From Clostridium sp. Marseille-P2415 (GTDB lineage Bacteria > Bacillota > Clostridia > Lachnospirales > Lachnospiraceae), in contig NZ_LT732526.1 of NCBI RefSeq assembly GCF_900155545.1, positions 57,068 through 121,067 on the forward strand: DNA of 64,000 nucleotides, read 5' to 3'. A program made the translations under genes and the position numbers. The notes below the pieces were generated by a model. The model saw only the letters and a program-made list of their open reading frames with translations, searched no databases and was not told the origin of the DNA. Of this stretch, positions 11,226 to 26,412 are shown piece by piece (position 1 is the stretch's first letter; every line of letters begins with the position of its first letter).

Positions 11226-11229
11226 CCAT

Positions 11230-11268
11230 GATCCCCGGTATAAAGTGAATGTACCGGGGATCAATTAT
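11230..11268 (+). terminator. Probable terminator of the fucose operon
   Basis: An 11-bp perfect stem (GATCCCCGGTA at 11230-11240 with TACCGGGGATC at 11252-11262, 11-nt loop), followed by AATTATTTA. The T-tract is weak, so termination may be partial. Confidence 0.65.
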
Positions 11269-11319
11269 TTAGCACAAAATTTTCCATCTCTAATTTTGAT
11301 GTCTGCCTAATAGAATATA

Positions 11320-11559
11320 TTATTCAACCAATTCCCATTTTCCTATCCACTTGTTTGTTGTACAATTATATTGTCTTCTATATAATTTCCCATCCACGAC
11401 TTTGTAACGCCATTCGATTATATCCGATTGAAGCCAAGCTGATTTCGTATGAAAAGAACTTGATGCGGAAGAGCTTGCAAATACTTGAATATTATAGATG
11501 CTCCCAAATAGGATAACACACATGATTAATACAGCAGGATATCTGAATTTTTTCTTCAT
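11320..11559 (-). CDS. Small secreted protein of unknown function
   Basis: A 79-residue protein with a clear signal peptide (basic MKKKFR, a hydrophobic core, and 'VFASSSASS' near the likely cleavage). The mature part, about 50 residues, ends in 'WRYKVVDGKLYRRQYN' and 'NKWIGKWELVE', a short Tyr/Trp-rich unit that I have seen in small exported proteins of Firmicutes but cannot name. It lies 43 bp downstream of the BlaR1-like gene on the same strand and may be cotranscribed. No enzymatic motif is visible. Confidence 0.7.
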   Translation of the reverse strand: MKKKFRYPAVLIMCVILFGSIYNIQVFASSSASSSFHTKSAWLQSDIIEWRYKVVDGKLYRRQYNCTTNKWIGKWELVE

Positions 11560-11602
11560 TACAATTATAATTCCTTTCTTTTAAACTTTATTTTAGAGAT
11601 GT

Positions 11603-12736
11603 TCATTTGGCTAATATAATTTTTGATCTGTGTACTGGCAGGTTAATAAGACAACTGGGGATTTCTTGCATAGTCACAACATATTTTCCTTTTATATATA
11701 AATCATAGGAATTATCTTCACGTGCAATAAAATAATCCGTTTTATTGTTAACAGTAAAAGTTCCTTCAACATTTGTTTGATCTATATGATACGATTCAAA
11801 TGTATATATAAATGAAAATAATAATAAGGAAGCCGTAAAAATCAGAGGACATAATTTATATTTTATTAATTTTAACTTCTTGTTATTGCAATTGAACTTT
11901 AAAGCTGATTGAATTCGATATTCAAGCATGCTATTATGTAACGAAAACGAGAGAGTTAAAATAGAATTTTGTCTTCGGAACATGATTCGCGTTAAATTAA
12001 TTAAGGTTTCCAAATAAGATAGTCTGGAATCATTTGAAAGATTCTGAATCACTTGTATATCTGCCTGCAGTTCCAAAGCTCGTATCACTTCTCTGCGAAA
12101 TATCCACATAACCGGATTCCACCAGTATATTGCAGTTGCTGCTTCTATAAAATATTTAATAATCATATGGAAATTATTCAGATGTTCCAGCTCGTGCATT
12201 AGTACAAATTTCATTTCACTTTTAGATAGATTATAATATGGAAATACAATAATTGGGTTTCGGAATCCCACGATAAATGGTCCTGTATTTACATTCAATT
12301 GAATTAGCTTTGGCTTTTTAGTCAGTTGTTTAAGACTGCATAACTCTGATAATATTTGCTTGAGTTCTTCATTTTCTGTTTCTTGAACCAGGGATAATAC
12401 TTGAATTAGTTTTCGATGTTTCATTGTAATAGAAGTCAGTAAAAGCAATGCAATAACGAACCAAACTACTATTAGGAGATTACCAAGCAGCAGATTATTA
12501 TATATTGGATATGCTTCTATGTTCTTTAAGACTGGAAGTATATTTCTGGAAGCTAAAGTATGTGTAAATGAAAATTCATGAGGAAAGAGAGTTTTTATAA
12601 AAACTATGAGTACAATAATAAAAAGAGGAACCCCTTTTTTGTAGATTAAAAGATTTGGAACTCTTAAAAGAGGAATTAATGACATTGCTGCTAATCCACA
12701 GAATAAACAATTAGTTAATATCAGGGAAGATGACAT
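11603..12736 (-). CDS. BlaR1/MecR1-like M56 membrane metalloprotease without a penicillin-sensor domain
   Basis: A 377-residue membrane protein with several N-terminal helices and the cytoplasmic M56 zinc motif 'HELEHLNNFH', followed by 'ALELQADIQVI', which supplies the third ligand in the family. In BlaR1 this protease leads to cleavage of the BlaI repressor. BlaR1 is about 600 residues with an extracellular penicillin-binding domain; here only about 65 residues follow the last membrane helix, so beta-lactam sensing is unlikely. GAGGGGGGAAAATAGT within the end of the repressor gene points to ATG 12736 as start, one base after that gene's stop. Confidence 0.85.
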   Translation of the reverse strand: MSSSLILTNCLFCGLAAMSLIPLLRVPNLLIYKKGVPLFIIVLIVFIKTLFPHEFSFTHTLASRNILPVLKNIEAYPIYNNLLLGNLLIVVWFVIALLLLTSITMKHRKLIQVLSLVQETENEELKQILSELCSLKQLTKKPKLIQLNVNTGPFIVGFRNPIIVFPYYNLSKSEMKFVLMHELEHLNNFHMIIKYFIEAATAIYWWNPVMWIFRREVIRALELQADIQVIQNLSNDSRLSYLETLINLTRIMFRRQNSILTLSFSLHNSMLEYRIQSALKFNCNNKKLKLIKYKLCPLIFTASLLLFSFIYTFESYHIDQTNVEGTFTVNNKTDYFIAREDNSYDLYIKGKYVVTMQEIPSCLINLPVHRSKIILAK

Positions 12737-12737
12737 A

Positions 12738-13130
12738 CTATTTTCCCCCCTCATCCCTTTTGATTTTTATTGTTTTTTCTAATTCATCTAATATATCCGG
12801 ACTGCTGTTTTTGACTAAATGATCCAGAAAGCTTAAAGTTGAAAAATTCAAGGTATTTACTCTCATAGACTGTAATTGTTCAGCAGCATATTGTTCGGCA
12901 CTGATAATTGATTGATATTCCCGGGCTAATACGGTACCGCTATATGTTATACCGGAAATATCAATATATCCCTTTTTCAACAAACTGCGTAACATAGCCT
13001 GAACCGTATTTATACTTATACCTCCCCCTTTTTCCACAATATCTGAAGCAGTCAAAGGCTTTCCAATGCACCAGAAAACTGACATGATATCTTTTTCTCT
13101 GCCGCTCAATTTAGGTAAAAAGTTTTTCAT
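12738..13130 (-). CDS. BlaI/MecI/CopY-family repressor
   Basis: A 130-residue winged-helix repressor. 'LSGREKDIMSVFWCIGKPLTASDIVE' and 'SINTVQAMLRSLLKKGYIDIS' form the DNA-binding half (about residues 7-70), and the C-terminal helices (about 85-130) give dimerisation. It is first in a minus-strand operon with the M56 protease and diverges from the folate operon across a 229-bp gap. Known BlaI proteins bind TACA/TGTA-type palindromes and autoregulate; a matching palindrome lies at 13157-13175. The inducing signal is unknown. Confidence 0.88.
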   Translation of the reverse strand: MKNFLPKLSGREKDIMSVFWCIGKPLTASDIVEKGGGISINTVQAMLRSLLKKGYIDISGITYSGTVLAREYQSIISAEQYAAEQLQSMRVNTLNFSTLSFLDHLVKNSSPDILDELEKTIKIKRDEGGK

Positions 13131-13359
13131 TATAATTCTCCTGGTTTCGTGAAGTATACTAATATTTTATCAGTATAAAAATGAAGTGTCAATATTTTAT
13201 ATAATAAAATATAAAATAACAGTAAATGATTGTTGACATGTCTTAGAAAGTGTATTATTGTTAAGGCAGTAAAAAAATACATTATCAGTAAAAAAATACA
13301 TGCCATTAGAATAATTTCGGATGTTCATAAGTCACTAAAGATGATAGGAAGTGTAAACA
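13131..13359. promoter_or_regulatory. Divergent control region of the BlaI-like and folate operons
   Basis: An imperfect 19-bp palindrome, TACTAATA-TTT-TATCAGTA, covers 13157-13175 just upstream of the repressor gene. Rightward, TTGACA at 13233-13238 and TATTGT at 13256-13261 (17-bp spacing) form a plausible promoter for the folate operon. Two direct copies of CAGTAAAAAAATACAT at 13267-13282 and 13286-13301 lie at its expected transcription start. The short box CAGTAWA also occurs at 13171 and 13220. These are candidate BlaI-family operators; no THF riboswitch pattern was recognised. Confidence 0.55.
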
Positions 13360-13851
13360 GTGAAAGAATGTGAGTGGAATGCCATCGCTGCAATGGACTC
13401 TAACAGAGTGATAGGAAATGGATATAAGCTGCCCTGGAATATGCCTAAAGATATGGAATGGTTTCATGCTGCTACAAAGGGGCACATATTGGTGGTTGGA
13501 AGGAAAACCTTTGAGTCTATTAAAAAAATTTATCCGGAAAACGTGTACTATATATTAACACGAAATAGAAATTACGTCGTAGATAAAGCGAATGTAAGGA
13601 TCATACACCAGGTTAGCGAAATACCGCAAACTGGCATGGATGGAAAGAAAGTGTGGATTTGTGGTGGAAGTGAAATATATGCCGCTACGATTGCAAAATG
13701 CAGACATGTTTACATAACACAAATAAAAAGAGCTTATGAAGGGAATAAATATTTTCCGGCATTTGAAAGAGATTTTAATTTAGACCAGGTAATATATGAA
13801 GATGATGAAATTAGCATTATGAAGTATAAAAAGGTTGCGAGGAGGCTTTAA
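13360..13851 (+). CDS. folA: Dihydrofolate reductase
   Basis: A 163-residue cytoplasmic enzyme that reduces dihydrofolate to tetrahydrofolate with NADPH. '[29 protein letters not shown]' gives the Met20-like loop and the catalytic acid (Asp in PKDMEWF), '[13 protein letters not shown]' the NADPH site and '[11 protein letters not shown]' the GG motif. The start is GTG at 13360, eight bases after AGGAAG. It opens the AT-rich folate operon, two bases ahead of folE. Whether it tolerates trimethoprim cannot be judged from motifs. Confidence 0.93.
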
Positions 13852-13853
13852 GC

Positions 13854-14420
13854 ATGGATAAAGAACGAATTAAATTTGCTGTAAGAGAGTTGCTGATTGC
13901 AATAGGCGAAGATCCTGACAGGGAAGGATTAAGAGAAACACCTGAAAGAGTATCTAATATGTATGGTGAAATATTTGCAGGATTAGAAACATCTCCCCAA
14001 AGTGTCCTGAAGTTTTTCGGCGAGAGTTATAATGAAGAGATGGTAGTGGTAAAAGACATACCCTTTTATTCAATGTGTGAACACCATTTATTGCCTTTCT
14101 ACGGAACCGCAAGTATATGTTACATTCCAGCGTCAGGCAAACTGTTAGGATTAAGTAAAATAGCCCGTTTAGTAGATATATGTGCAAAAAGACCACAGTT
14201 ACAGGAACGGTTAGGGACAGAAATTATTGAGATATTAGAAAATGATGCACAGGCACTTGGCGCAGCAATACTAATAAAGGCTGAGCATTTGTGTATGAAT
14301 ATGAGAGGAATAAAAAAGCCGGGTACCAAAACGGTAACCACTTCATTTTCAGGAATTTTAAAAACGGATGATAAAGCAAGAAAAGAGGCACTACAATTGT
14401 TAACTCTTCAATCGGATTGA
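13854..14420 (+). CDS. folE: GTP cyclohydrolase I
   Basis: A 188-residue enzyme making 7,8-dihydroneopterin triphosphate from GTP, the first pterin step. Marks are '[16 protein letters not shown]', the zinc Cys-His segment '[15 protein letters not shown]', '[22 protein letters not shown]' and '[15 protein letters not shown]' (second zinc Cys). AGGAGG lies in the end of folA. Type I zinc enzyme; no type IB motif. Confidence 0.96.
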
Positions 14421-14444
14421 TTATTATCAGATTCTAAAAGATTT

Positions 14445-14939
14445 TTGGAGGGAATAGTTATAGAACGTATAACAAATATTTTAAATAATGAAGTTTTTAA
14501 AGAAAATTTAGAAAGAAATAAGACTGCTGAAAGAGAAAGGATGTTCTGCAAGCATGATTTAAACCATTCTATAGATGTAGCAAGAATCGCATATATTCTA
14601 AACCTTGAAGATCAGTTGGATTATGACAAAGAATTAATTTATGCAGTTGCATTGCTTCACGATATAACAAAGTGGCGGCAGTATGAGGATGGGACACCTC
14701 ATAACATTTCGGCAGCTGAAGTATCTGATATCATATTGGGTTCATGCGGGTTTCATGGAAAGGAAAAAGAAATGTGCAAGAATGCGATTTCTAAGCATCG
14801 TAAATTAGAAAGTGAGAATGATTCCTTTGCAGAATTAATGTATAAGGCAGATAAATTATCTCGTTTTTGCTTTTTCTGCAAAGCGAAAAATATATGTAAT
14901 TGGAGCCCGGAAAAGATGAATAAAAACTTAATTTATTGA
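14445..14939 (+). CDS. HD-domain hydrolase in the folate operon (candidate pterin phosphohydrolase)
   Basis: About 160 residues. The HD-superfamily metal ligands are visible: His in 'KHDLNHSIDVAR', the 'LLHDITKW' HD pair, and a C-terminal Asp in 'MYKADKLSRF'. It lies between folE and folP, where the operon otherwise lacks an enzyme to dephosphorylate dihydroneopterin triphosphate (FolQ), so that role is plausible but only inferred. The start is odd: the only standard codon near the GGAGGG site is a TTG at 14445 that overlaps it; the codons at a normal distance are ATA (14454 and 14460). The true initiation codon is uncertain. Confidence 0.75.
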   Translation: MEGIVIERITNILNNEVFKENLERNKTAERERMFCKHDLNHSIDVARIAYILNLEDQLDYDKELIYAVALLHDITKWRQYEDGTPHNISAAEVSDIILGSCGFHGKEKEMCKNAISKHRKLESENDSFAELMYKADKLSRFCFFCKAKNICNWSPEKMNKNLIY

Positions 14940-14957
14940 ATTTAAGGAGGAGAAAAA

Positions 14958-15770
14958 ATGTATATTGGAAACACTAAATTTGATATTGGAGAAAGAACCT
15001 ATATTGTCGGTATTGTAAACTTCACTCCTGATTCTTTTTATGACGGCGGTAAATACAATACAATAGATAAAGCAATTTCTTATGCTGAAAAATTGACTAG
15101 TGAAGGTGCAGATATCATAGAAATAGGAGGAGAATCTACACGTCCAGGAGCAATTCCAGTGGAAGAGGAAGAGGAATTGTCAAGAGTGCTGCCAATTTTA
15201 AAAGAATTGAAAAAACATATTAATGTACCGATTTCTATTGACACAAGAAGAGCTTCTGTAGCAGAACGGGCTATTTGTTTAGGAGCATCTATGATAAACG
15301 ATATTGGCTGTCTGAAGAAAGATGAAAATATGGCGGCATTATGCTCTAAATATAATGTAACATGCTGCATCATGCATAATAGAAACAATATGGATTATAA
15401 CAATTTCATTATAGACGTTATATCTGATTTGAAAGAGAGCATAGAAATAGCGCTCAATGCAGGTATATCTCATGAGAATATTATTATAGACCCGGGAATT
15501 GGTTTTGCAAAAACAGTTTCACAAAATGTAGCCGTCATGAAAAATCTGGAAGAGTTCTCAAAATTAAAATATCCGGTTTTACTAGGGACTTCAAGAAAAT
15601 CTTTTATCGGTAATATACTTAATTTACCACAAGAGGAAAGACTGGAGGGTACCCTGGCAACAACTGCATTAGCAATATCCAAACACTGTGATTTTATAAG
15701 GGTTCACGATGTAAAGGCTAATAAAAGGGTTTGCATGATAACTGATGAGATTGTGAGAGGACGCCATTAG
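14958..15770 (+). CDS. folP: Dihydropteroate synthase
   Basis: A 270-residue TIM-barrel enzyme joining the pterin diphosphate with p-aminobenzoate, the target of sulfonamides. Motifs: 'IVNFTPDSFYDGG' (loop 1), 'EIGGESTRPGA' (loop 2), 'SIDTRRASVAE', 'INDIGCL', 'DPGIGFAKT', 'GTSRKSFIG' and 'RVHDV'. All catalytic loops are present, so it should be active. AAGGAGG precedes the ATG. It follows the HD gene by 18 bp. Confidence 0.95.
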   Translation: MYIGNTKFDIGERTYIVGIVNFTPDSFYDGGKYNTIDKAISYAEKLTSEGADIIEIGGESTRPGAIPVEEEEELSRVLPILKELKKHINVPISIDTRRASVAERAICLGASMINDIGCLKKDENMAALCSKYNVTCCIMHNRNNMDYNNFIIDVISDLKESIEIALNAGISHENIIIDPGIGFAKTVSQNVAVMKNLEEFSKLKYPVLLGTSRKSFIGNILNLPQEERLEGTLATTALAISKHCDFIRVHDVKANKRVCMITDEIVRGRH

Positions 15771-15781
15771 GAGGTGGGTGT

Positions 15782-16645
15782 TTGGATACTATAAATATAA
15801 CAGATTTAGAAATATATGCACATCATGGAGTTTTTGAAGAAGAAAAAAAGATGGGGCAGAAGTTCTTAATATCATTGCAATTGTCTTTGTGTGTGCGGAA
15901 AGCCGGTCTGAATGATCAAATAAACGCTACTGTAAATTATGCAGAAATTTGTAAATTTGTTTCTGATGCATTTACTTGTAAATCATATGATTTAATTGAA
16001 AGCTGTGCAGAAGCAATTGCGGAAGAAATCCTTCTAAAATATCAAATGGTGAGGGAGGTTATTATAGAAATAAAAAAACCCTGGGCACCCATAGGATGCA
16101 TTGTGGATTATGTATCAGTGAAAATAAAAAGAGGGTGGAACACGGCATTCTTAGGACTGGGGTCCAACATGGGAAACAAGAATGAGAATATAGGTAATGC
16201 ACTGGAATTGATTGAAGATTCAAAGAATGTAATTGTGAATCGATCTTCTTTTTATATAACATCTCCTGTCGGAGGTGTTGAACAAGACGATTTCCTTAAT
16301 TGTTGTATTGAACTTAAAACCTTACTTACAGCTGAAGAATTATTAAAACATGTATTGACTGTTGAAAATAAATTAAAACGTATAAGAGCCATCCACTGGG
16401 GACCCAGGACAATCGATATTGATATTCTTTTATTTAATCACGATATACATGAAGACGAAGACTTAATAATTCCCCATCCCAGATTGCACGAAAGAATGTT
16501 TGTTTTGACACCTCTCTGTGAAATTAGAGCTAATTATGTACATCCAATTTTACAAAAACGATTGCAGGAAATAAAAGACAGGTTGGAGAAAGAGCAGCTG
16601 GAGGGTATTAAGCCGATGGAAGCTGTCACTGCATGGACTGAATAG
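15782..16645 (+). CDS. folBK: Dihydroneopterin aldolase / HPPK fusion
   Basis: A 287-residue bifunctional protein. Residues 1-118 are dihydroneopterin aldolase ('ITDLEIYAHHGVFEEEKKMGQKF', 'YAEICKFV', 'IEIKKPWAP'), which releases glycolaldehyde. Residues about 122-280 are 6-hydroxymethyl-dihydropterin pyrophosphokinase ('FLGLGSNMGNKNENIGNAL' and 'HWGPRTIDIDILLFNH'). FolB-FolK fusions are common in Firmicutes. The start is TTG at 15782, seven bases after AGGAGG. It provides the two steps before FolP. Confidence 0.94.
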   Translation: MDTINITDLEIYAHHGVFEEEKKMGQKFLISLQLSLCVRKAGLNDQINATVNYAEICKFVSDAFTCKSYDLIESCAEAIAEEILLKYQMVREVIIEIKKPWAPIGCIVDYVSVKIKRGWNTAFLGLGSNMGNKNENIGNALELIEDSKNVIVNRSSFYITSPVGGVEQDDFLNCCIELKTLLTAEELLKHVLTVENKLKRIRAIHWGPRTIDIDILLFNHDIHEDEDLIIPHPRLHERMFVLTPLCEIRANYVHPILQKRLQEIKDRLEKEQLEGIKPMEAVTAWTE

Positions 16646-16668
16646 AAGGAGGGCAATAAAAAGCGATT

Positions 16669-17448
16669 ATGGATATATATAATATCTTAAATGCAAATAG
16701 CAAAAGCCCTATTATTGTAAGTTTTCCGCACAGTGGCACATATGTACCTGATTTTATAAAAAACAGTATGCGTAAATCCGTTGTACTGACCAATATGGAC
16801 TGGTTCTTACCGGAATTGTTTGATTTCTTAAATGCAAAGGGGATAACACAGATTATTTCCAATGTCAGCCGATATGTAGTTGATTTAAATAGAGATTCCG
16901 GCAATTTAAATCCGGATAATTATAAACAGTCAGTTATTTATGAAACCAATACATTTGGTACTCCATTATATGAAAATTCTTTAAACAAAATGGAAATAGC
17001 GAAGCGGATCGAAACATTCTATAAGCCTTATCATGAGGAATTAAGAAGACAGTTAGAATCAAAAATATTACAATTTGAAAAGGTTTATTTGATAGATATG
17101 CATAGCTTTTTTCAGCAATATAATGAGGACATTTGCCTTGGAAATTCAGATGGAGCCACATCAGGTAAGGATACCATGGAAGTGTTAAAAAAGAATTTGC
17201 AGGCAAATGGATTTTCTACTAATACAAATTCAATTTTTAAAGGTGGAAATACAATTAAATATTATCGCAAATTATTTGGCAATGCATTTCAAGGATTGAT
17301 TTTAGAAATAAATTATAGGGCATATATAGACAACAGGTATTTTGGAGAAGAGGAAGTTGTTGCTTACAATAAGGAACTATTTAAAGACTCAAAAGGCCGT
17401 TTAGAGAAAACCTTGGAAAAAACGTTTGATATTTGGACTAAAATATGA
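16669..17448 (+). CDS. N-formylglutamate amidohydrolase-family protein
   Basis: A 259-residue member of the FGase/HutG-type metal amidohydrolases. 'PIIVSFPHSGTYVPDFI' and 'VYLIDMHSFFQQY' carry the expected His/Asp metal ligands, and 'RDSGNLNPDNY' and 'ILEINYRAYID' follow. The classic reaction frees formate from N-formylglutamate in histidine breakdown, but no hut gene is near. Its place between folBK and folC suggests action on a glutamate-bearing folate compound or on a formyl adduct; the substrate is not known. AAGGAGGG precedes the start by a rather long spacer. Confidence 0.85.
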   Translation: MDIYNILNANSKSPIIVSFPHSGTYVPDFIKNSMRKSVVLTNMDWFLPELFDFLNAKGITQIISNVSRYVVDLNRDSGNLNPDNYKQSVIYETNTFGTPLYENSLNKMEIAKRIETFYKPYHEELRRQLESKILQFEKVYLIDMHSFFQQYNEDICLGNSDGATSGKDTMEVLKKNLQANGFSTNTNSIFKGGNTIKYYRKLFGNAFQGLILEINYRAYIDNRYFGEEEVVAYNKELFKDSKGRLEKTLEKTFDIWTKI

Positions 17449-17461
17449 GAGGTAAATAAAG

Positions 17462-18727
17462 ATGACTTATGATGAAGCAATAAAATTTATACATAACAAA
17501 TCCTGGAAAGGAACCAAACTGGGATTAGATAGAATGATAGAACTTAATGAATTAATTGGCAATCCCCAAAAACAATTAAAATTTGTTCATATTGCAGGAA
17601 CGAATGGAAAGGGCTCAACCTCCAGAATGCTTGCGAATATATTAATTGATTCTGGCTATCGTGTAGGTTTGTTTACCTCTCCATTTATATCGAAATTTAA
17701 TGAATATTTTCAGGTTAACGATAGTTGTATTATGGATTCCGAATTAATTGATCTGACCGAATTTATAAAACCTTATGTGGATAAGATGAAAGAAGGTCCA
17801 ACCGAGTTTGAACTGATTACAATGCTTGCAGTAGAATATTTCAAACGAAAGTACTGTGATATCGTAGTATTTGAAGTAGGAATGGGCGGAAGACTTGATT
17901 GTACGAATTTTATAGAGAATACAGAGGTGGCAGTAATAACATCAATTGGTCTGGATCATATGGAACAGCTTGGAAATACGATTTCTGAAATCGCCAAAGA
18001 AAAAGCAGGAATTATAAAAAAGAATTGCCAGGTTGTTTTGTATCAGCAAGGAGAAGAAGTTGTTCATATTGTGGAAGAAACCTGTAAAAAAGTAAATGTA
18101 GAATTATTTCTTACGGATTTTTCTAAATTAACCCTTGTGCGTTCTAATCTGGATGGTCAATTATTTCATTATAAAAACATTCAAAATATTTTTATTGAGC
18201 TTTTAGGAAGCCATCAGCTTAAAAATACAGCAGTAGCCATAGAAACAGCGTGTGTATTACAAAAACGAGGCTGGAGAATCAGTGAAGCTAATATTAAGGA
18301 AGGTTTGAAAAGAACAAAGTGGCCGGCGAGATTCGAAGTGCTGCAGCAGGATCCGGTTGTAATTTTGGACGGCGGACATAATCCACAATGTTTTCAGGCA
18401 CTGAAGGAAGGACTCGTGCAATATTTTCCTGGAAAAAAAATATCATTTGTAATCGGTGTTTTCGCGGATAAAGATTATATTTCAATGATTGATATAATCG
18501 CTCCCTATGCAAAAGAATTCTTTACCATAACTCCCGATAATCCCAGAGCTTTCAATGCGGAAGATTTAACTGAATGTTTAAAAAAATATAATTTACCAAT
18601 AGTAAATTGCGGGAGTCCCTTAAATGGATTAAAAAGAGCGGTTGATGGTGCACAAAAAGAAGATATTATTTGTGTAGCAGGTTCTTTTTCAATAGCAAGT
18701 GAAATACGTTCATTTTATGGACTTTAG
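17462..18727 (+). CDS. folC: Folylpolyglutamate synthase / dihydrofolate synthase
   Basis: A 421-residue Mur-ligase-family enzyme that adds glutamate to dihydropteroate and/or extends the gamma-glutamyl tail. ATP site 'HIAGTNGKGSTSRMLANIL', folate loop 'FTSPFISKFNEYFQVND', 'EVGMGGRLDCTNF', and the C-domain 'VILDGGHNPQCFQALKEGL'. Length is standard (420-430). Whether it has the dihydrofolate synthase activity as well as the polyglutamylating one cannot be told by eye, though a lone FolC in a complete operon usually does both. Confidence 0.95.
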   Translation: MTYDEAIKFIHNKSWKGTKLGLDRMIELNELIGNPQKQLKFVHIAGTNGKGSTSRMLANILIDSGYRVGLFTSPFISKFNEYFQVNDSCIMDSELIDLTEFIKPYVDKMKEGPTEFELITMLAVEYFKRKYCDIVVFEVGMGGRLDCTNFIENTEVAVITSIGLDHMEQLGNTISEIAKEKAGIIKKNCQVVLYQQGEEVVHIVEETCKKVNVELFLTDFSKLTLVRSNLDGQLFHYKNIQNIFIELLGSHQLKNTAVAIETACVLQKRGWRISEANIKEGLKRTKWPARFEVLQQDPVVILDGGHNPQCFQALKEGLVQYFPGKKISFVIGVFADKDYISMIDIIAPYAKEFFTITPDNPRAFNAEDLTECLKKYNLPIVNCGSPLNGLKRAVDGAQKEDIICVAGSFSIASEIRSFYGL

Positions 18728-18766
18728 TTTTTATGTTAAAAACTGTATAAATGCGGGGTGAAAAGT

Positions 18767-20524
18767 GTGAAAATAAATCTCACGAAACATCCATTCAGGG
18801 TGTTTCTGTTAGCTGTAATATTATTAATTTTTAATATTGTTACGGTGTTTGCCAATGAGGATCGTGAAGTTGTTCGAAACGGAGGTGTCGTTTCCAGTGC
18901 AAGTGAGTATTCATCGCAAATAGGAGTGGATATATTAAAAAAGGGAGGGAATGCGGTGGATGCTGCCGTGGCAGCAATCTTTGCAATTGGAGTTGTCGAG
19001 CCCAACTTAAGTTCCATTGGGGGAAGCGGCATTATGACAATTTATACAAAGGAAAATGATCAATGTATAGTCATTGAATATATGGAGACCGTTCCATTAA
19101 ATATGACAGCCGGATGGTTTGATCCGGATACAGACAAAAATACTGCTAAAAATGCTGCTGTACCCGGACAGGTGTACGGAATATTAACGGCACTTGATCA
19201 GTATGGAACAATGAGCAGAGAAGAAGTAATGGCACCTGCTATTGAGCTGGCGCGAAATGGATTCAGAGCTGATAAAAGATTAGCAGATTCCATCGGCAAA
19301 AACTATGAGATATTAGTTCAAAACCCTGACTTTGCAAATGTATATTTAAATAATGGAAAGCTAATAAAAGAAGGAGATATAATAAAAAATGAATTGTTGG
19401 CTAATACATTGCAAAAAATTGCAGAACAAGGTATTGATGGTTTTTATAATGGTGAATTAGCACGCAATATTGTAAATGGATTACAGGCAGAAAACAATTT
19501 AATTACTTTAAATGACATGTCAAATTATCGTTCTATTGAACGAGAACCTATTCAGACTTCATATCATGGTTATAACATTATAGTTCCTTCTATGCCATCC
19601 AATGGGGGAGAGTGGCTGTTAGAATCTCTTAATATATTGGAAAACTATGATTTAAAATCAATGGGAGTCCATTCATCTGAATATTTATTTACTTTAAATG
19701 AGGCATTGCGGTTAGGAATGGCAGATGCATTCACTTTTCTGGGAGATCCGGCTTTTTATGATATTCCGGTAGACACTATCATATCGAAAGACTATGCAAA
19801 GAAAAGACTTGAAAATATGCCTGCAGATAAAGCTATGATTAATCCGCCCCACGGAGACTTAAAATCGAATCCCCAAAAATCAAGCAGAGAAGATAGTAAG
19901 GAAACAAGCCACATCTCCGTGATGGATCAATTTGGCAATGTAGTATCAACTACCAATACCATCGGAAATGCCTGGGGCTGTAAATATATGGCTCCTGGTC
20001 TGGGCTTTTTTTACAATAGCCATATAAGTAATTTAGAACATGATCCTCAAAAAAGTGATAGCCCGGATTATGTTATACCAGGTAAACGCGTTAGAAGCAC
20101 TATTACACCAGCCATTGTTTCAAAAGACGGTGAACCAATTATGGCAATCGGTTCACCAGGCAGCAGTTCCATACCTCCGGCTATATTAACAGTATTAAAT
20201 AATGTATTAATTTTTGATATGGACATTCAGCAGGCTATTGATATGCCTCGTGCATTCGTCCTGGATTTATATAACCCGATATTAACAATAGAAGGAAGCT
20301 ATTTCTCATTAACGGTAAAAAATGAGTTATTAAGTTTGGGATATGAGTTTAATGATGTAAGCACGTATAATTCTGCGTTAGGAGGCATTGCGGCTGTATT
20401 TTATGATACAAAAACACAAAAATACAATGGCGGTGCAGATCCGAGAAGGAATTATAAATCAATTTCATATGAAGATGAATCAAAAGAAATTAGTGAAAAT
20501 AAGGAACTACAGCCTGCAGCATAG
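18767..20524 (+). CDS. ggt: Secreted gamma-glutamyltransferase / hydrolase
   Basis: A 585-residue Ntn hydrolase with an N-terminal signal or anchor segment (PFRVFLLAVILLIFNIVTVFA). 'VVSSASEYSSQIGVDILKKGGNAVDAAVAA' opens the large subunit. The autocleavage site and nucleophile is Thr of 'KETSHISVMDQFGNVVS' (about residue 380), and 'GSPGSSSIPPAIL' is the oxyanion region. Outside the cell it would hydrolyse or transfer gamma-glutamyl bonds, classically glutathione but also poly-gamma-glutamyl chains. The GTG at 18767 is preferred (GGGG eight bases ahead) over GTG 18758. Placement after folC suggests trimming of folate polyglutamates before uptake, which is inference. Confidence 0.92.
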   Translation: MKINLTKHPFRVFLLAVILLIFNIVTVFANEDREVVRNGGVVSSASEYSSQIGVDILKKGGNAVDAAVAAIFAIGVVEPNLSSIGGSGIMTIYTKENDQCIVIEYMETVPLNMTAGWFDPDTDKNTAKNAAVPGQVYGILTALDQYGTMSREEVMAPAIELARNGFRADKRLADSIGKNYEILVQNPDFANVYLNNGKLIKEGDIIKNELLANTLQKIAEQGIDGFYNGELARNIVNGLQAENNLITLNDMSNYRSIEREPIQTSYHGYNIIVPSMPSNGGEWLLESLNILENYDLKSMGVHSSEYLFTLNEALRLGMADAFTFLGDPAFYDIPVDTIISKDYAKKRLENMPADKAMINPPHGDLKSNPQKSSREDSKETSHISVMDQFGNVVSTTNTIGNAWGCKYMAPGLGFFYNSHISNLEHDPQKSDSPDYVIPGKRVRSTITPAIVSKDGEPIMAIGSPGSSSIPPAILTVLNNVLIFDMDIQQAIDMPRAFVLDLYNPILTIEGSYFSLTVKNELLSLGYEFNDVSTYNSALGGIAAVFYDTKTQKYNGGADPRRNYKSISYEDESKEISENKELQPAA

Positions 20525-20540
20525 AAAGTGAGGGAATGAA

Positions 20541-21053
20541 ATGCGAAATAAAATAGCAGTAACAGCAATGCTGACAGCACTGCTCATTGTTTTAAAGAGT
20601 TATTTAGCAATTACAACTCCTATCATGAGAATAAGCTTTGCCTTTTTTCCTCTGGCTCTGGCAGGGATATTGTATGGTCCGTTGTGGGCGGGTATATCCG
20701 GAGGTGTAGGAGATGTAGTTGGGCTATTGCTGTATCCTGTCGCTGGCTTTCATCCAGGACTTACCCTATCGGCAATTCTATCGGGAATCGTTTATGGAGT
20801 CTTTTTACATAACAAAACCAGGCAATTATGGAGGGTAGTTTGTGTGGTTTTCATTAACAATTTTATAATAAGCTGTGGCTTGAGTACAATATGGGTTTAT
20901 CAAATGACAGGTCAGGCAATACGGGCTCTTCTGCCGGTTCGATTGATTCAGAATATTCTTATGGCACCAATCATGATTCTTATGATATGGGTGCTGGGAT
21001 ATAAAATAATTGCATTAAGAAATAATAAAAAAATGATCAGTGGGGATGAATAG
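20541..21053 (+). CDS. folT: ECF transporter S component, FolT family (first copy)
   Basis: A 170-residue membrane protein with about six helices and the FolT-type segment 'RISFAFFPLALAGILYGPLWAGISGGVGDVVGLLLYP', then 'FHPGLTLSAILSGIVYG' and 'LLPVRLIQNILMAPI'. S components bind the vitamin; FolT family members bind folates. It lies next to ggt (16 bp) and just ahead of the energising module ecfA1-ecfA2-ecfT. A second, related S component ends the operon at 25510. The names folT1/folT2 are positional. Confidence 0.9.
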   Translation: MRNKIAVTAMLTALLIVLKSYLAITTPIMRISFAFFPLALAGILYGPLWAGISGGVGDVVGLLLYPVAGFHPGLTLSAILSGIVYGVFLHNKTRQLWRVVCVVFINNFIISCGLSTIWVYQMTGQAIRALLPVRLIQNILMAPIMILMIWVLGYKIIALRNNKKMISGDE

Positions 21054-21909
21054 AATCGTGGGAAGTGCAAAGGAAAACCTTTTATTATGTGATGATGTTT
21101 CATTCTATTATAAGAATTCAGAACAACAGGAAAATATTTTAAATCATATCAATTTGGAGATAATTCCTGGAAGCATAATAGCTATTTTAGGACATAATGG
21201 TTCTGGTAAGTCTACACTGGCCAAACATTTTAATGGTATTTTAGTATCAAAATCCGGAGAAATATATTTTAAGGATACGAAAATCAGAGATATGCGTATA
21301 GAAATAAAAAAGCATATTGGAATGGTGTTTCAGAATCCGGACAATCAGATAGTCGCATCAACAGTTCAGGAAGATGTAGCATTTGGCTTACAAAATTTAG
21401 AAATGGCATCGGAAGAAATACGTATTCGCATTGATGAAGCACTGGAAGCAGTTTCTATGAAAGATTACATATACTGGGACACACATAAATTATCAGGCGG
21501 ACAAAAGCAGCGGGTTGCAATCGCAGGTATCTTGGCTATGAAACCAGAATGTATTGTATTGGATGAGCCGACCTCTATGCTGGATCCGCAAGGCAGAAAA
21601 GAAGTAATGGATGTCATACAGCAGTTACGTAAAGAATATGGCATTACTATCGTTTTAATTACGCATTTTATGGAAGAAGCAGTAGCGTGTGACAGAGTAA
21701 TAGTGATGAAAAACGGAGTGGTGTTAATGGATGACATTCCGGCAAAAGTTTTCAATAGAGTGAAAGAACTTAAAAATGCAGGCTTGAAAGTTCCGCAGTC
21801 AATCGAATTAATGCAATCATTGAGAGCGGAAGGAATTGAAGTTTCTTCCGAATGCCTTACAGAAGAACAATGTATTGATGAAATATACAGGCTTTTGGAG
21901 GAACGGTAA
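21046..21909 (+). CDS. ecfA1: ECF transporter ATPase, EcfA1-like
   Basis: About 287 residues. Walker A 'GHNGSGKST', Q-loop 'MVFQNPDNQIVASTVQEDVAFG', signature 'LSGGQKQRVAIAG', Walker B 'CIVLDEPTSMLD' and switch His in 'LITHFMEEAVACD'. The start is uncertain: ATG 21046 overlaps the S-component stop, and GTG 21058 is better spaced from GGGGATG. It pairs with the second ATPase, one base downstream, as the usual asymmetric EcfA1-EcfA2 dimer. Confidence 0.94.
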   Translation: MNRIVGSAKENLLLCDDVSFYYKNSEQQENILNHINLEIIPGSIIAILGHNGSGKSTLAKHFNGILVSKSGEIYFKDTKIRDMRIEIKKHIGMVFQNPDNQIVASTVQEDVAFGLQNLEMASEEIRIRIDEALEAVSMKDYIYWDTHKLSGGQKQRVAIAGILAMKPECIVLDEPTSMLDPQGRKEVMDVIQQLRKEYGITIVLITHFMEEAVACDRVIVMKNGVVLMDDIPAKVFNRVKELKNAGLKVPQSIELMQSLRAEGIEVSSECLTEEQCIDEIYRLLEER

Positions 21910-21910
21910 T

Positions 21911-22786
21911 ATGCCTATAATAAAGACAAAAAATTTAAATTTTGAATATTCATCAGGAAGTGTTTTTCATAAGACTGCAATTTCAGATATTAATATGGAA
22001 ATTGAACAAGATGAATTTGTTGCATTAATTGGACATACAGGTTCTGGAAAATCAACATTAATAAAACATTTAAACGGACTGTTAAAACCTACATCCGGGA
22101 AAGTTATAATTGATGGACAAGATATTTGGTCCCATCCAAAGAATCTGCAAAAATATAGATTTATGGTAGGAATGGTTTTTCAATATCCGGAATATCAGCT
22201 ATTTGGAGAAACCGTGTATAAAGATATCTCTTATGGTCCAATGAATATTGGAGTATCGGAATCAGAAATCAATGAACGAGTGATGAAATCTATTTCTATT
22301 GTTGGATTGGATAGAACAATTTTATCAAAATCGCCTTTTGAGCTGTCGGGAGGAGAAAAAAGAAGGGCAGCTATCGCTGGTGTAATTGCAATGAATCCGA
22401 AAGTTCTTATTCTGGATGAGCCTACTGCAGGTTTGGACCCACTGGGAAGGGATAAAATATTAAAGGAAATATATCGTTATCATTTAGAAAATAATGTTTC
22501 AGTAATATTGGTATCGCACAATATGGAAGAAGTTGCGAATTATGCGGATAAAATATTTGTCATGAATGATACAAAAATCGTATTAAGCGGAAATGTTCCA
22601 GAAATATATAGTCATGCAAAAAAACTAAAAGAAATAGGATTATCTATACCACAGATTATGGAGATTTGCCTGGGATTAAATGAAAAAGGAATTTCGATAG
22701 ATCCGGTAACAACTTCAGTTGAAAGCGCAAAATGTCAGATAATTAATCTGTTAAAACACAGAAAAAGGGATGAACAAGAATGCTAA
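21911..22786 (+). CDS. ecfA2: ECF transporter ATPase, EcfA2-like
   Basis: A 291-residue ABC ATPase: Walker A 'GHTGSGKSTLIKHLNGL', 'MVFQYPEYQLFGETVYKDISYG', signature 'LSGGEKRRAAIAG', Walker B 'VLILDEPTAGLDP' and switch 'LVSHNMEEVANYAD'. The 'EYQLF' sequence after the Q-loop is typical of EcfA2. ATG 21911 follows GGAGGAACGG; the frame extends upstream to 21836 but this lies in ecfA1. It overlaps ecfT by seven bases. Confidence 0.94.
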   Translation: MPIIKTKNLNFEYSSGSVFHKTAISDINMEIEQDEFVALIGHTGSGKSTLIKHLNGLLKPTSGKVIIDGQDIWSHPKNLQKYRFMVGMVFQYPEYQLFGETVYKDISYGPMNIGVSESEINERVMKSISIVGLDRTILSKSPFELSGGEKRRAAIAGVIAMNPKVLILDEPTAGLDPLGRDKILKEIYRYHLENNVSVILVSHNMEEVANYADKIFVMNDTKIVLSGNVPEIYSHAKKLKEIGLSIPQIMEICLGLNEKGISIDPVTTSVESAKCQIINLLKHRKRDEQEC

Positions 22787-23595
22787 GAGATATTACTGTC
22801 GGTCAATATTTTCCGGGAAATTCGATCGTCCACAAAATGGATCCGAGAACCAAGATTATAGTTGGTCTTATATATATCTTTGTTTTATTTATAGCATCAA
22901 ATTTTTTTTCACTGTTATTAGGTGTAATTTTTATTTTTGGCACTGTGATATTATCAGGGGTATCATTAACTTTATTAAAAAAGAGTATAGACCCTGTCAT
23001 ACCATTAGTAGGTATTTCGTTAATTTTTAATATTTTTTTTACAGATGGCGATGTTCTATGGAAACTTGGTATTTTAAAAATAACCGACAGAGGAGTTTGG
23101 GCGGCTGTTTTCATGTGTATTCGGCTTATTTGTTTGGTGATTGGTACATATATTTTTACTTATACAACATCTATCATGCAAATAACTCATGGATTAGAAC
23201 AGCTTCTGAATCCTCTGAATAAAATAAATTTTCCTGTTCAGGAGATTGCTATGACAATGACAATAGCTTTACGGTTTATCCCTACCCTGATAGAAGAAGC
23301 AGACAAAATAATATCTGCTCAAAAATCGAGAGGAGCAGATATGGATTCAGGCAGCGTAATCAAACGGGTAAAGAGCCGCATTCCTATATTGATCCCTTTA
23401 TTTATGGCATCCTTCCAACGGGCGGATGAACTTACATTAGCAATGAGCTGCCGTTGTTATGACAGTGGAAATCCACGAACTTATTTAGAAAAATTGGAGT
23501 ATAAAAGATATGACTTTTTTGCTTTTTTTTGTATCGCAATAATTGGAATTTTGGTTATTTATATAGATACAAGAATACCTAAAGTTTTTTATTGA
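22780..23595 (+). CDS. ecfT: ECF transporter transmembrane component EcfT
   Basis: A 271-residue membrane protein linking the ATPases to the S component. 'VHKMDPRTKIIVGLIYIF' begins the first helix. The two coupling motifs are 'AQKSRGAD' and 'ELTLAMSCRCYDSG', which contact the ATPase grooves. With the ATPases it forms one full ECF module, and the two FolT-like S components could share it. Confidence 0.93.
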   Translation: MLRDITVGQYFPGNSIVHKMDPRTKIIVGLIYIFVLFIASNFFSLLLGVIFIFGTVILSGVSLTLLKKSIDPVIPLVGISLIFNIFFTDGDVLWKLGILKITDRGVWAAVFMCIRLICLVIGTYIFTYTTSIMQITHGLEQLLNPLNKINFPVQEIAMTMTIALRFIPTLIEEADKIISAQKSRGADMDSGSVIKRVKSRIPILIPLFMASFQRADELTLAMSCRCYDSGNPRTYLEKLEYKRYDFFAFFCIAIIGILVIYIDTRIPKVFY

Positions 23596-23644
23596 TTATC
23601 AGATAAGGAGGAATAGGCATTGTTCAATTGCCTTAATTTTAGAT

Positions 23645-25513
23645 ATGACAAAGGAACCAAAAAGAATTACTTCGATTTTTTCTGAGGGCCGGGCAATTAT
23701 TTTTATGGAAAATTTTAATGATTACTTAGTTTTGGGATTTTCAGATAATAGGTTAGAGATATATAATCCCGAATCTTTTCATAAAGAATATTTAGGATTT
23801 TTTGATAATAAAAATTTTGCTGGGATTCGTAAAGAAAATCAAAAATTAGTTCTATTTTTTAAAGATTATGAAATTAATATTTTATATGAAAACAATTGTT
23901 TAACCATACAGCAAAATGTAGAAAAAATAGCTGGATCTCAAAAAGACATTTTAAAGAATCAAGTTACATATTTTGAGACGAAAATAAGAAAAGATATATA
24001 TATTATAGAAAATACATTTATGAGAGTCTATTTTGGAAATACATTTGATATTTATGTTAAGAGAGAAGGCGGCGAAGAAAAAGTTCTTACAGGAAATCAC
24101 ACAAATTGGGTAACGGATGCCTGTATAGTCAGAGACAGTCTATATACAGCCGGATATGATGGATATATTAGAAAGTGGGATTTAAAAACTGGAAATTGTG
24201 AAGATGCTTATCCATTGAAAAGAGGCTGGATATTGTCATTAACTTTTATAAAAGATAATTTCTATGTTGGTACAGAGTTTGGTGAGTTATATCTAATTCC
24301 GTACAATGAATTTAAAAATATTAAAATTAACGGCGGTGCTATATGGAATCTTTATGCATACCAGGATAAGTTATATTCTGTATCGGAGAATGGTGAGATC
24401 GTTGGATACAGCATGAATGAAAAAAAATCAAGTTACCTGAAATGTTCTGCAGGCTGGATTAATGCGATAGGAGCATTTTCCAATGAACACTTAATTGCAG
24501 TTACCAGTAGAGGAGAGATTATTAAGGTAGATCATAATTTATTAAGGTCTGAGTTATTGGAAAGATTAAAATTGTGGTTCAATAATCTGTGCATAATAAA
24601 TGAAATTGTCTATGCAGTAACTGCTGAAGGCATGGTTGTTAAATTTGATCTAAATACCGGAAAATCAGAAACATTTAAAATCAGCAGTAACCAGCTGATA
24701 GATATATGTTATTTGGAATCACAGCAAAAAATAGGGATTCTAAGTGTTGAAGGAGAATTTATAATCTGGAACCATTATAAGAACTTTATAGACAAGATTA
24801 TCAAATGTAACGGTTATCATTTCACATCCATGACTTTTAACCATGCAAAAGGGTATATTTATATTTCTACATTTGAGGGTGCTATTGTATTTATTAATAC
24901 TAACATGGATTATGAAATAAGTTATAGAAAGATAACAGGTGGCCGTATTTGGAAAGTATCTTATTGTTCAGACAATAGTAGCGTTGCATATATTTCTACG
25001 AGTTTGGAGATTGGAATTTGTGATGAGTCAATTCAAAAAAACATAGCTAAAATATCGGTAAATGAATTGGTAACTACCTGTCTTTTGTTAAATGATTCAT
25101 TATATACAGGAAATGAGAGAGGAGAGGTAAAAAGCTATCCGGTGGTTATGGAAGAAGATGAAAAAATATTAACAATGGAAAGCGGGTCAGAAGATTCTAA
25201 GGAAAATGATTTTTTTGAGAAAAATGTAATTTTATTCATAGATAACAGTATAGAATGTTCCCGGTATTATATTGAGAGAGATTGCAAGCTATTAGAAAGA
25301 TATAATCTGCCATATGTTAAGCTTGATCTCTCAAATAATGAAGAAATGAAAAGTATGGTAATCAAAAGAACTGGCTGGAGCAGATTTCCGCAGATTTTAC
25401 TGTGGGGAGATTTTATTGCTTCCGGAAGTGTATTGCCGGAAATGTTGGATTCAGGTACTTTAGATAATATTGTTAAAGAAAAACAGCGTATGAAAGGAGA
25501 TAAAATAAAATGA
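23645..25513 (+). CDS. Beta-propeller (WD40/PQQ-like) protein with C-terminal glutaredoxin-like domain
   Basis: A 622-residue protein with no signal peptide. Residues about 1-510 are a beta-propeller of repeated blades ('NDYLVLGFSDNRLEIYN', 'DSLYTAGYDGYIRKWDLKTGN', 'EIVYAVTAEGMVVKFDLNTGK'). Residues about 525-615 resemble monothiol glutaredoxins: 'VILFIDNSIECSRYY' in place of the CGFS loop, 'LPYVKLDL', and 'WSRFPQILLWGDFIASGSVLPEMLDSGTL' like the WP-FPQ-GE-GG-EM-SG-L pattern. The expected first Cys of CGFS is Ile and a Cys sits two residues later. It lies between ecfT and the second FolT gene. AAGGAGG at 23605-23611 is 33 bases ahead of this ATG; see findings. Function unknown. Confidence 0.8.
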   Translation: MTKEPKRITSIFSEGRAIIFMENFNDYLVLGFSDNRLEIYNPESFHKEYLGFFDNKNFAGIRKENQKLVLFFKDYEINILYENNCLTIQQNVEKIAGSQKDILKNQVTYFETKIRKDIYIIENTFMRVYFGNTFDIYVKREGGEEKVLTGNHTNWVTDACIVRDSLYTAGYDGYIRKWDLKTGNCEDAYPLKRGWILSLTFIKDNFYVGTEFGELYLIPYNEFKNIKINGGAIWNLYAYQDKLYSVSENGEIVGYSMNEKKSSYLKCSAGWINAIGAFSNEHLIAVTSRGEIIKVDHNLLRSELLERLKLWFNNLCIINEIVYAVTAEGMVVKFDLNTGKSETFKISSNQLIDICYLESQQKIGILSVEGEFIIWNHYKNFIDKIIKCNGYHFTSMTFNHAKGYIYISTFEGAIVFINTNMDYEISYRKITGGRIWKVSYCSDNSSVAYISTSLEIGICDESIQKNIAKISVNELVTTCLLLNDSLYTGNERGEVKSYPVVMEEDEKILTMESGSEDSKENDFFEKNVILFIDNSIECSRYYIERDCKLLERYNLPYVKLDLSNNEEMKSMVIKRTGWSRFPQILLWGDFIASGSVLPEMLDSGTLDNIVKEKQRMKGDKIK

Positions 25514-26031
25514 AAGAAAAGTTTGGTCAAAAAATAGCGGTTTTAGGTGTGTTATTAGCACTGCAGATAATTGCAGGCAGATTTTTAACTATATCGACAT
25601 TGTATTTAAAGATTGGATTTGCATTCGTTCCTCTCGCGCTGACTGCAATTCTGTATGGTCCCTTGTATGCATCAATAAATGCAGCTTTAGGAGATATAAT
25701 AATTGCGATGCTTAATCCTTTTGGATATTTTCCGGGATTTACAGTATCTGCAATATTAAAAGGCGCTTTGTACGGATTATTTTTATATAATAAGCCCAAA
25801 AAGACTTGGCGCGTATTAGGGGTAGTAGCTATCGCAAATATTGCTGTTAGTATCTTTTTAAATTCATATTGGCTATATATGTTAACAGGACAAGGATACA
25901 TGGCTGTATTACCAACAAGAGTATTTCAAAATGTAGTCATGATACCAATAGAAGTTTTCGTGATAAGACTGGTTGTTTATCCCATTGCTGAATTGCGGCA
26001 AAAGGCTGCAGCCAATCGGTTGGAAGAATAG
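25510..26031 (+). CDS. ECF transporter S component, FolT family (second copy)
   Basis: A 173-residue, six-helix protein similar to the S component at 20541: 'KIGFAFVPLALTAILYGPLYASINAALGDIIIAMLNPFG', 'YFPGFTVSAILKGALYGLFLYNKPKKTWR' and 'VLPTRVFQNVVMIPI'. Same family, different substrate-facing residues, so it may bind another folate or pterin form. It starts in the ATGA overlap with the propeller gene and ends the operon. Confidence 0.88.
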   Translation: MKEKFGQKIAVLGVLLALQIIAGRFLTISTLYLKIGFAFVPLALTAILYGPLYASINAALGDIIIAMLNPFGYFPGFTVSAILKGALYGLFLYNKPKKTWRVLGVVAIANIAVSIFLNSYWLYMLTGQGYMAVLPTRVFQNVVMIPIEVFVIRLVVYPIAELRQKAAANRLEE

Positions 26032-26071
26032 TCCGGTAAACGATGCCAATCAATACCATGGTTAACAGGAA

Positions 26072-26107
26072 ACAGGCTGCGAAACGATTTTCACAGCCTG
26101 TGCTTTT
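26072..26107. terminator. Terminator between the folate operon and azlD
   Basis: ACAGGCTG (26072-26079) pairs with CAGCCTGT (26094-26101), with an inner GAAA/TTTC extension, followed by CTTTTTAT. It serves the rightward operon; the convergent azlD gene ends at the same place. Confidence 0.75.
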
Positions 26108-26412
26108 TATAAGAATAATTCAATCACAAATACAACCGCACAGGCAGTGAGGGAAACCTTAAACAGGCTTTTCTCTTTGTATGCCAGAAATACGGCCGCT
26201 GCCAGTGCGGCACCGGCGGACCATATACTTTTTGTGGCTGTGAGAATAGCAGGAAAGGTCATCACCGACAAGGTCACATACGGAACATAGTAAAGAAAAG
26301 ACCGGATAAAAGGACTTTTGATTTCCCACCGGATAAACGTCAGCGGAAGGACTCGGATCAAGTAGGTGACAGCGGCCATGACAAGTATGTAGAGATAGAG
26401 CCGGTTATTCAT
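26107..26412 (-). CDS. azlD: AzlD-family branched-chain amino acid export subunit
   Basis: A 101-residue membrane protein with four short helices ('VMAAVTYLIRVLPLTFIR', 'YYVPYVTLSVMTFPAILTATKS'). AzlD works with AzlC to export branched-chain amino acids or their analogues. It overlaps azlC by eight bases (its ATG lies in the azlC stop), so it is translationally coupled. Confidence 0.88.
   Translation of the reverse strand: MNNRLYLYILVMAAVTYLIRVLPLTFIRWEIKSPFIRSFLYYVPYVTLSVMTFPAILTATKSIWSAGAALAAAVFLAYKEKSLFKVSLTACAVVFVIELFL

Follow-up and report, generated by a model that had tools for sequence, protein, structure and literature searches.

Within a window of 64,000 nucleotides from Clostridium sp. 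Marseille-P2415 (contig NZ_LT732526.1, positions 57,068 to 121,067 of the forward strand; by window we mean the whole stretch that was analysed), a folate operon of 14 genes (13360-26031, plus strand), with folA as the first gene and a second FolT gene as the last, lies divergently from a three-gene cassette, blaI - M56 - ssp, which encodes a repressor, a membrane metalloprotease and a small secreted protein (SSP); the likely control of the operon by this cassette is the subject of the present analysis. The spacing between the genes of the operon ranges from small overlaps up to 49 bp. An earlier note on this DNA had counted 13 genes, and while the open reading frames and the Pfam/NCBIfam assignments agree with the families and gaps that it gave, the number is 14. 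Its description of a BlaI-like repressor and an M56 gene diverging from the operon agrees with the open reading frames and families for both genes; it had overlooked the third conserved gene of the cassette, encoding a 79-aa secreted protein. The coordinates of all features are collected in Table 1.

Table 1. Features of the cassette, of the divergent intergenic region and of the folate operon, with positions in the window
Feature	Position	Strand	Basis
ssp, 79-aa secreted protein, third cassette gene	11320..11559	-	translation, co-occurrence, structure model
M56 metalloprotease, 383 aa	11603..12754	-	PF05569 1.4e-27; HELEH at residue 187; TM-like segments
BlaI/Penicillinase_R-family repressor, 130 aa, overlaps M56 start	12738..13130	-	PF03965 3.5e-10
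Predicted blaI promoter TTGACA-17-TAAAAT	13164..13192	-	11 of 12, top-scoring of 81
Weak operator-like site CAGTATAAAAATGA in blaI promoter, 3 mismatches	13171..13184	+	by eye
Predicted folA operon promoter TTGACA-17-TATTGT	13233..13261	+	10 of 12; region aligned across four operon carriers
Putative BlaI operator 1 CAGTAAAAAAATAC	13267..13280	+	starts 5 nt past folA -10
Putative BlaI operator 2 CAGTAAAAAAATAC	13286..13299	+	identical 14-bp copy
folA, dihydrofolate reductase	13360..13851	+	PF00186
folE, GTP cyclohydrolase I	13854..14420	+	PF01227
HD-domain hydrolase, FolQ2-like candidate, dihydroneopterin triphosphate dephosphorylation	14445..14939	+	PF01966, HDIG; FolQ2 as proposed in cited passages of PMC1971073
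folP, dihydropteroate synthase	14958..15770	+	PF00809
folBK fusion	15782..16645	+	PF02152 + PF01288
FGase-like, N-formylglutamate amidohydrolase superfamily	16669..17448	+	PF05013
folC	17462..18727	+	Mur ligase middle + C domains; named from context
Gamma-glutamyltransferase (GGT), probably secreted	18758..20524	+	PF01019; TIGR00066
FolT-family ECF S component 1	20541..21053	+	TIGR04518, 122 bits
EcfA ATPase	21040..21909	+	PF00005
EcfA' ATPase	21911..22786	+	PF00005
EcfT transmembrane component	22780..23595	+	PF02361
Beta-propeller protein, C-terminal glutaredoxin-like domain	23645..25513	+	family scans
FolT-family ECF S component 2	25510..26031	+	TIGR04518, 124.6 bits

The cassette proteins

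The repressor belongs to the Penicillinase_R family (40.7 bits, Pfam gathering cut-off 22.6), and its partner contains an M56 protease domain with the HExxH motif (PF05569, 97 bits, cut-off 31). The C-terminal penicillin-binding sensor domain was not found in the latter protein, which ends at residue 383, and its score against the BlaR1 equivalog model is 90.9 bits, with a cut-off of 400. The BlaR1 structure 8exp, of a 602-aa BlaR1, aligns with the M56 protein of the window over residues 88-316 alone. As judged from these comparisons, the protein keeps the membrane-protease core of BlaR1 without the beta-lactam sensor domain.

The ssp reading frame begins 43 bases downstream of M56, and the start of its product resembles a signal peptide. 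The relatives of SSP align over a Trp- and Tyr-rich core of some 30 residues (17 sequences). A one-sequence structure model places a helix at residues 8-28 and three strands at residues 48-78, with block mean pLDDT of at least 90 from residue 51 onward, and SSP is thus predicted to consist of a signal peptide and a three-stranded beta domain. SSP has no convincing counterpart among described sequence families: the few low scores in Pfam and NCBIfam (best E 0.0037 and 0.0071, respectively) each concerned a single one of the 17 members, the best match in PHROGs, searched with the protein of the window only, had an E of 0.054, and no PDB sequence matched below E 1 (best 1.2). The spacing of the Trp residues resembles that of WW domains, but no WW chain appeared among the matches listed in two structural comparisons, and a WW-like fold was not adopted.

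Association of SSP with sensor-less M56 proteins

Among 35 distinct M56 loci of the genus, a sample left after removal of duplicate places rather than every M56 gene, all 21 short M56 genes (<450 aa, pieces summed) are followed by SSP, against none of the 14 long BlaR1-like ones (470-600 aa); at one of the 21 (L048) the SSP match is a 53-aa remnant without the core. Some of these loci, from closely related genomes, hardly differ from one another, and the SSPs of the 35 loci were used to build the search profile; a more independent test is given by this profile against 299 Lachnospiraceae genomes, about one per genus, of which 32 were matched. M56 lies just upstream on the same strand in 27 of the 30 loci fetched, one of them being that of the window's genome and another (L107) having M56 in two pieces; in L114 the SSP match is inside a 540-aa M56 reading frame, and the matches of L100 and L105 are at contig ends. 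Seven further places comprise three with M56 before SSP, three weak matches without M56 that are apparently false, and one fusion. In this fusion (L123, genome G201, contig C8, 898-2223) the last 40 residues of a 441-aa M56 protein are the SSP domain (E 2.6e-8), which places SSP at the M56 end where BlaR1 bears its sensor domain. Since gene order and one fusion put SSP at the position of the sensor domain, it is the best candidate for the extracellular input and may be the missing sensor of the repressor-protease pair. The chances seem about even that blaI - M56 - ssp forms a three-component signalling system across Lachnospiraceae, in which the secreted SSP would be a detachable sensor or ligand acting in trans, and which would be portable before different operons, that for folate included.

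The genes beside other cassettes vary. A second cassette of the same subtype occurs in the window's genome (contig C9, about 3.02 Mb; L075, 7550-10948), with the same site as described below and, as divergent genes, a secreted-like 166-aa protein and a VanZ-like gene. A Pfam scan of 20 neighbour proteins of other cassettes, most neighbours being outside the scan, found several peptide exporters, radical SAM enzymes, and a bacteriocin-like protein or VanZ, and no folate synthesis enzyme among those 20. In L076 (8327-14084, contig C8 of the window's genome) blaI-M56-ssp diverges from genes for a lactococcin-972-like protein, a DUF1430 protein, scoring just below cut-off, and an ABC ATPase. The cassettes at L164, L169, L179 and L073 have C39 peptidase-ABC exporters, a different ABC exporter or radical SAM genes as neighbours. 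These last four loci suggest a link of the cassette with secreted or modified peptides; others, L167, L170 and L176 among them, are without such neighbours.

Predicted promoters and putative operator

Three other cassettes have a BlaI 60-62% identical to that of the window; they are found in the window's genome, in G308 and in G314 (near copy in G322). The 14-mer CAGTAAAAAAATAC is the best one common to the four intergenic regions, with 2 mismatches summed over the other three, both in the G308 site; none of 100 sets of dinucleotide-shuffled sequences reached 2 mismatches, the best having 5. Each site lies downstream of a TTGACA hexamer on the side of the divergent gene, 5-10 bases past the -10 by eye, although the divergent genes themselves vary: the folA operon in the window, a DUF6765 gene and two radical SAM genes in G314, and the genes for a secreted protein and VanZ in the second cassette of the window's genome. 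Two perfect copies are present in the folA promoter, against one in each of the three other divergent promoters, and by its sequence the shared site is clear at the target promoter and weak at that of blaI itself. No such site was found in the 300 bp upstream of blaI in five cassettes with a BlaI of 27-35% identity (best 4-5 mismatches). All three matches to the pattern CAGTAAWAAAATAY in the window's genome stand beside such cassettes, and genus-wide the pattern gave 40 matches in 25 genomes, against 4 for a backward control pattern.

Control by RNA elements was also considered. No Rfam family reached the gathering threshold in the window, and the four matches obtained up to E 5 within 11200-26200 were all irrelevant; since no relevant match was found, no described folate riboswitch explains the control of the operon, and riboswitch control, including by the THF riboswitch, was rejected. 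No tRNA was found in the window.

Gene content and origin of the folate operon

The FolP of the operon is the only one found by a search of the window's own genome, and the folA product scored below the cut-off of all 25 trimethoprim/DHFR models among those listed. The FGase-like protein reached 119.4 bits against the NCBIfam HutG model TIGR02017, short of the cut-off of 278.75, and was regarded as a member of the superfamily instead of HutG proper. The GGT scored 412 bits against TIGR00066 (cut-off 358) and has a hydrophobic segment near its N-terminus (residues 13-31). Both FolT components surpass the cut-off of 60 bits of the NCBIfam family ECF_S_folT_fam, with EcfA, EcfA' and EcfT present, and are predicted folate importers. 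The glutaredoxin-like domain of the propeller protein, inside a folate operon, is unexplained by the predicted pathway.

The cassette and the operon coincide with an AT-rich island: measured per 1 kb, GC is 0.30-0.38 between 11.0 and 26.0 kb, and all other 1-kb pieces but the first (0.387) have 0.41-0.54. Low GC was rejected as proving a joint transfer of the two, since four further cassettes of the window's genome are likewise low in GC (29-32%), and because cassettes elsewhere in the genome are also AT-rich, the GC of the cassette is uninformative on a joint arrival. A strong FolP match (>200 bits) was obtained in 5 of 25 genomes of the genus, three of the 25 being <90% complete, namely in the four that carry the operon and in G318 (44% identity); another 11 have only weak matches (<=24 bits) in long reading frames, taken to be methionine synthase, and nine have no FolP match. 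In 391 genomes of the class, a single other family (f64) supplies the nine best FolP matches from outside (58-61%), and the eight Lachnospiraceae matches over threshold have 45-51% identity. These FolP matches and the drop in GC favour an acquisition from outside, and the operon was probably acquired.

The 20 best FolP regions from outside the genus, five of them clipped by contig ends, contain the folE-HD-folP-folBK core, whole or in part; BLAST (1e-6) reaching 10 kb from folP revealed no folA, FGase, folC, GGT or propeller gene in any of them. Three have one FolT- or Ecf-like match each, and one has a weak match to the BlaI profile (6e-4) without M56 or SSP. The operon was not found outside the clade in propeller and FGase searches of family, order and class genomes and of contigs. 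The propeller-glutaredoxin protein occurs in one of 299 family genomes, the window's own, in none of the plasmid records, and at three loci of a wider contig collection, all of the same clade, the contig search having used two strict N-terminal patterns that distant relatives may escape. With the FGase profile, 6 of 392 order genomes were matched, the five besides that of the window weakly, and 5 of 391 class genomes; of the four outside matches in the class, the three that were viewed (G956, G788 and G854) lie in no folate locus. An FGase-like gene of 42-44% identity is present in the congener G309 (L019, 9551-11294) outside any folate synthesis operon, adjoining a reading frame that is weakly FolT-like (25%). 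A different and plainer cluster, folE-HD-folP-folBK-folC, occurs in G318 (L077, 8496-12605) and may be the more ancient folate locus in the genus.

Within the genus, the operon is present in 4 of the 25 genomes, the window's, G300, G301 and G321. In each of them azlCD is found on the folT2 side, either adjacent or with two or three genes in between; the opposite flank of the window's operon (aldolase, MFS) is unlike that of the three relatives, and in G313 and G318 the operon is missing beside azlCD. Only the azlCD side being in common, no single acquisition is claimed from a shared insertion site. The window's genome has an intact cassette. G321 has all three cassette genes, with blaI and M56 frameshifted, which was not used as proof of decay since the assembly also splits genes nearby. 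G301 keeps a joined remnant of the first part of blaI, the last part of M56 and the first part of ssp, and in G300 a mere scrap of blaI is left. The operon genes of G300 and G301 are open while the cassette is reduced to these remnants. The site has drifted where blaI was lost, to TAGTAAATAAATACAG in G301 and CAGTAAAAATAATAAAT in G300, and G321 has kept one perfect CAGTAAAAAAATAC copy; the drift fits an operator no longer under selection, in two cases.

Proposed regulation and alternative explanations

We consider it likely that an acquired folate operon is repressed at its folA promoter by the adjacent BlaI, as part of a blaI - M56 - ssp cassette that receives the input of SSP in trans. This proposal builds on the gene content of the locus, on the association of SSP with M56, one fusion included, and on the common site at divergent promoters; the binding, repression and proteolysis that it supposes are inferred, as are the part played by SSP and the reactions assigned to HD, GGT and FGase. 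BlaI would occupy the two CAGTAAAAAAATAC sites at the predicted transcription start and block the transcription of folA, SSP would supply or govern the extracellular input of M56 in trans, and a signal acting on SSP and/or M56 would lead M56 to cleave BlaI, thereby switching the operon on. The earlier note had envisaged an envelope or antifolate signal; nothing in the analysis supports an antifolate one. The synthesis branch would then comprise folE, HD/FolQ2, folBK, folP, folC and folA; in the salvage branch, the secreted GGT would trim glutamyl tails and the ECF transporters would import the product, and the FGase-like enzyme could, from the chemistry of its superfamily, release pABA from pABA-glutamate, an N-acyl-glutamate. 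Control of the operon by the adjacent BlaI, put forward in the earlier note, is supported by the predicted sites at the folA start, which recur beside three cassettes of the same subtype, and seems well supported but unproven. The same note would have the pair conserved beside the operon, and had named the lack of such conservation as telling against its proposal; this lack was found in part, as the pair is absent outside the clade (none of the 20 closest FolP loci) and within it is intact in one of four carriers, frameshifted in one and reduced to remnants in two.

Several observations weigh against the proposed regulation. No BlaI-M56-SSP set stands at any of the 20 folP loci closest outside the genus; among the four carriers, two have no more than remnants of the cassette and a third (G321) has it with frameshifts; and the second cassette of the same subtype (L075, contig C9) has an M56 gene broken into two pieces. 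Promoter-like hexamer pairs are hardly enriched, with 81 in a 15-kb region against a shuffled mean of 73.8. Of the 40 genus-wide matches to CAGTAAWAAAATAY, 32 were inspected, of which 7 are at cassettes and 25 are at least 1.5 kb away from any cassette gene; being A-rich and found mostly away from cassettes, the pattern alone is not specific. Moreover, four cassettes are few, and shuffling does not remove the kinship between promoters. Finally, the roles of an inhibitor, a substrate or an independent effector are just as conceivable for SSP.

The alternative that survives best is regulatory capture, in which a self-contained cassette controls the folate operon beside it incidentally, with no adaptive meaning and with a control that is fading; it is compatible with BlaI binding, and we hold it to be a real possibility of lesser probability than the proposal above. 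The presence of SSP in 32 of the 299 family genomes, the variety of genes that adjoin the cassettes, the open operon genes in two carriers with cassette remnants and the absence of the cassette from the 20 closest outside folP loci all speak for it, but the two perfect sites at the folA promoter, against one in each of the other three divergent promoters, suggest selection for a tight control in the window's genome. It is rather unlikely that SSP is instead a cargo effector, for instance a small protein of the bacteriocin-like or adhesion type, that is expressed along with the regulator but takes no part in signal transduction: its signal peptide-like helix and the lactococcin-972-like gene, C39 peptidase-ABC exporters and radical SAM genes beside some cassettes speak for such a role, whereas its occurrence only with the sensor-less form of M56 and its fusion to the M56 C-terminal end in L123 speak for a part in signalling. 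A still less probable explanation is that BlaI governs its own cassette alone, the operon being constitutive and the common sequence serving another function; although the A-rich site pattern does occur in the genus away from cassettes, the site is on the divergent-gene side, just past the -10, in four cassettes, is absent beside five distant BlaI types and has drifted where blaI was lost. A true BlaR1/BlaI beta-lactam sensor lying here by chance, suggested by the family membership of both proteins, is highly improbable and was rejected, because M56 ends without the sensor domain and scores far below the BlaR1 cut-off.

Relation to known systems and significance

The bla and mec regulators are divergent from the operon that they regulate, and the BlaI operator is a TACA/TGTA dyad; unlike in BlaI/BlaR1, the target in the window is a folate operon and the putative site is CAGTAAAAAAATAC, and the M56 protein lacks the penicillin-binding sensor domain, the gene for a small secreted protein being found instead. 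As in BlaI/BlaR1 and MecI/MecR1, which the cited passages of PMC7593790 describe for the staphylococcal beta-lactam response, a repressor and a membrane M56 protease with HExxH are encoded by adjacent genes. PetR/PetP of Synechocystis, presented in the cited part of PMC7896320 as a pair of the BlaI/BlaR1 family for copper, shows that such a pair can govern metabolism rather than beta-lactam resistance; it differs from the window's pair in its copper signal and photosynthesis genes, and a small secreted partner is not mentioned in that part of the article. Clostridial folE-HD-folP-folBK clusters have their core, whole or in part, in common with the operon of the window, which adds folA, FGase, folC, GGT and the propeller gene; the FolQ2 proposal is that of PMC1971073, in the passages cited. 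BlaI-M56 genes are also reported, in the cited portion of PMC6807378, on pCD6-like Clostridioides plasmids, where a short M56 stands beside BlaI with a further downstream gene, as in the window; the two M56 proteins are 27.5% identical over 68% of M56, and the third gene (561 bp) is annotated as peptidoglycan-binding. On plasmid pCd18_5 (L261, 2163-4127) BlaI and a short M56 are followed by such a peptidoglycan-binding-annotated gene, possibly another kind of third component.

Pairs of a repressor and an M56 protease beyond beta-lactam resistance are thus known already, PetR/PetP being an example (PMC7896320, in the part cited). A search of the open-access literature, covering titles and the openings of abstracts, returned among the matches listed no folate operon under BlaI, no small secreted protein linked to M56 and no folate regulation in Lacrimispora; as far as this search shows, the SSP component, the predicted operator and the link to a folate operon are new. 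The pairing with folate is local and partly decayed, and the cassette is the more general finding. If the proposal is true, a third, secreted component would be added to the textbook two-gene regulator, what sensor-less M56 proteins sense would become directly testable, and a predicted operator would be at hand for one BlaI subtype. It would also place a cofactor pathway that is rare in the genus under a membrane-protease switch, and because 20 of the 25 genus genomes are without a strong FolP match, the operon may determine whether these bacteria are folate-dependent or not.

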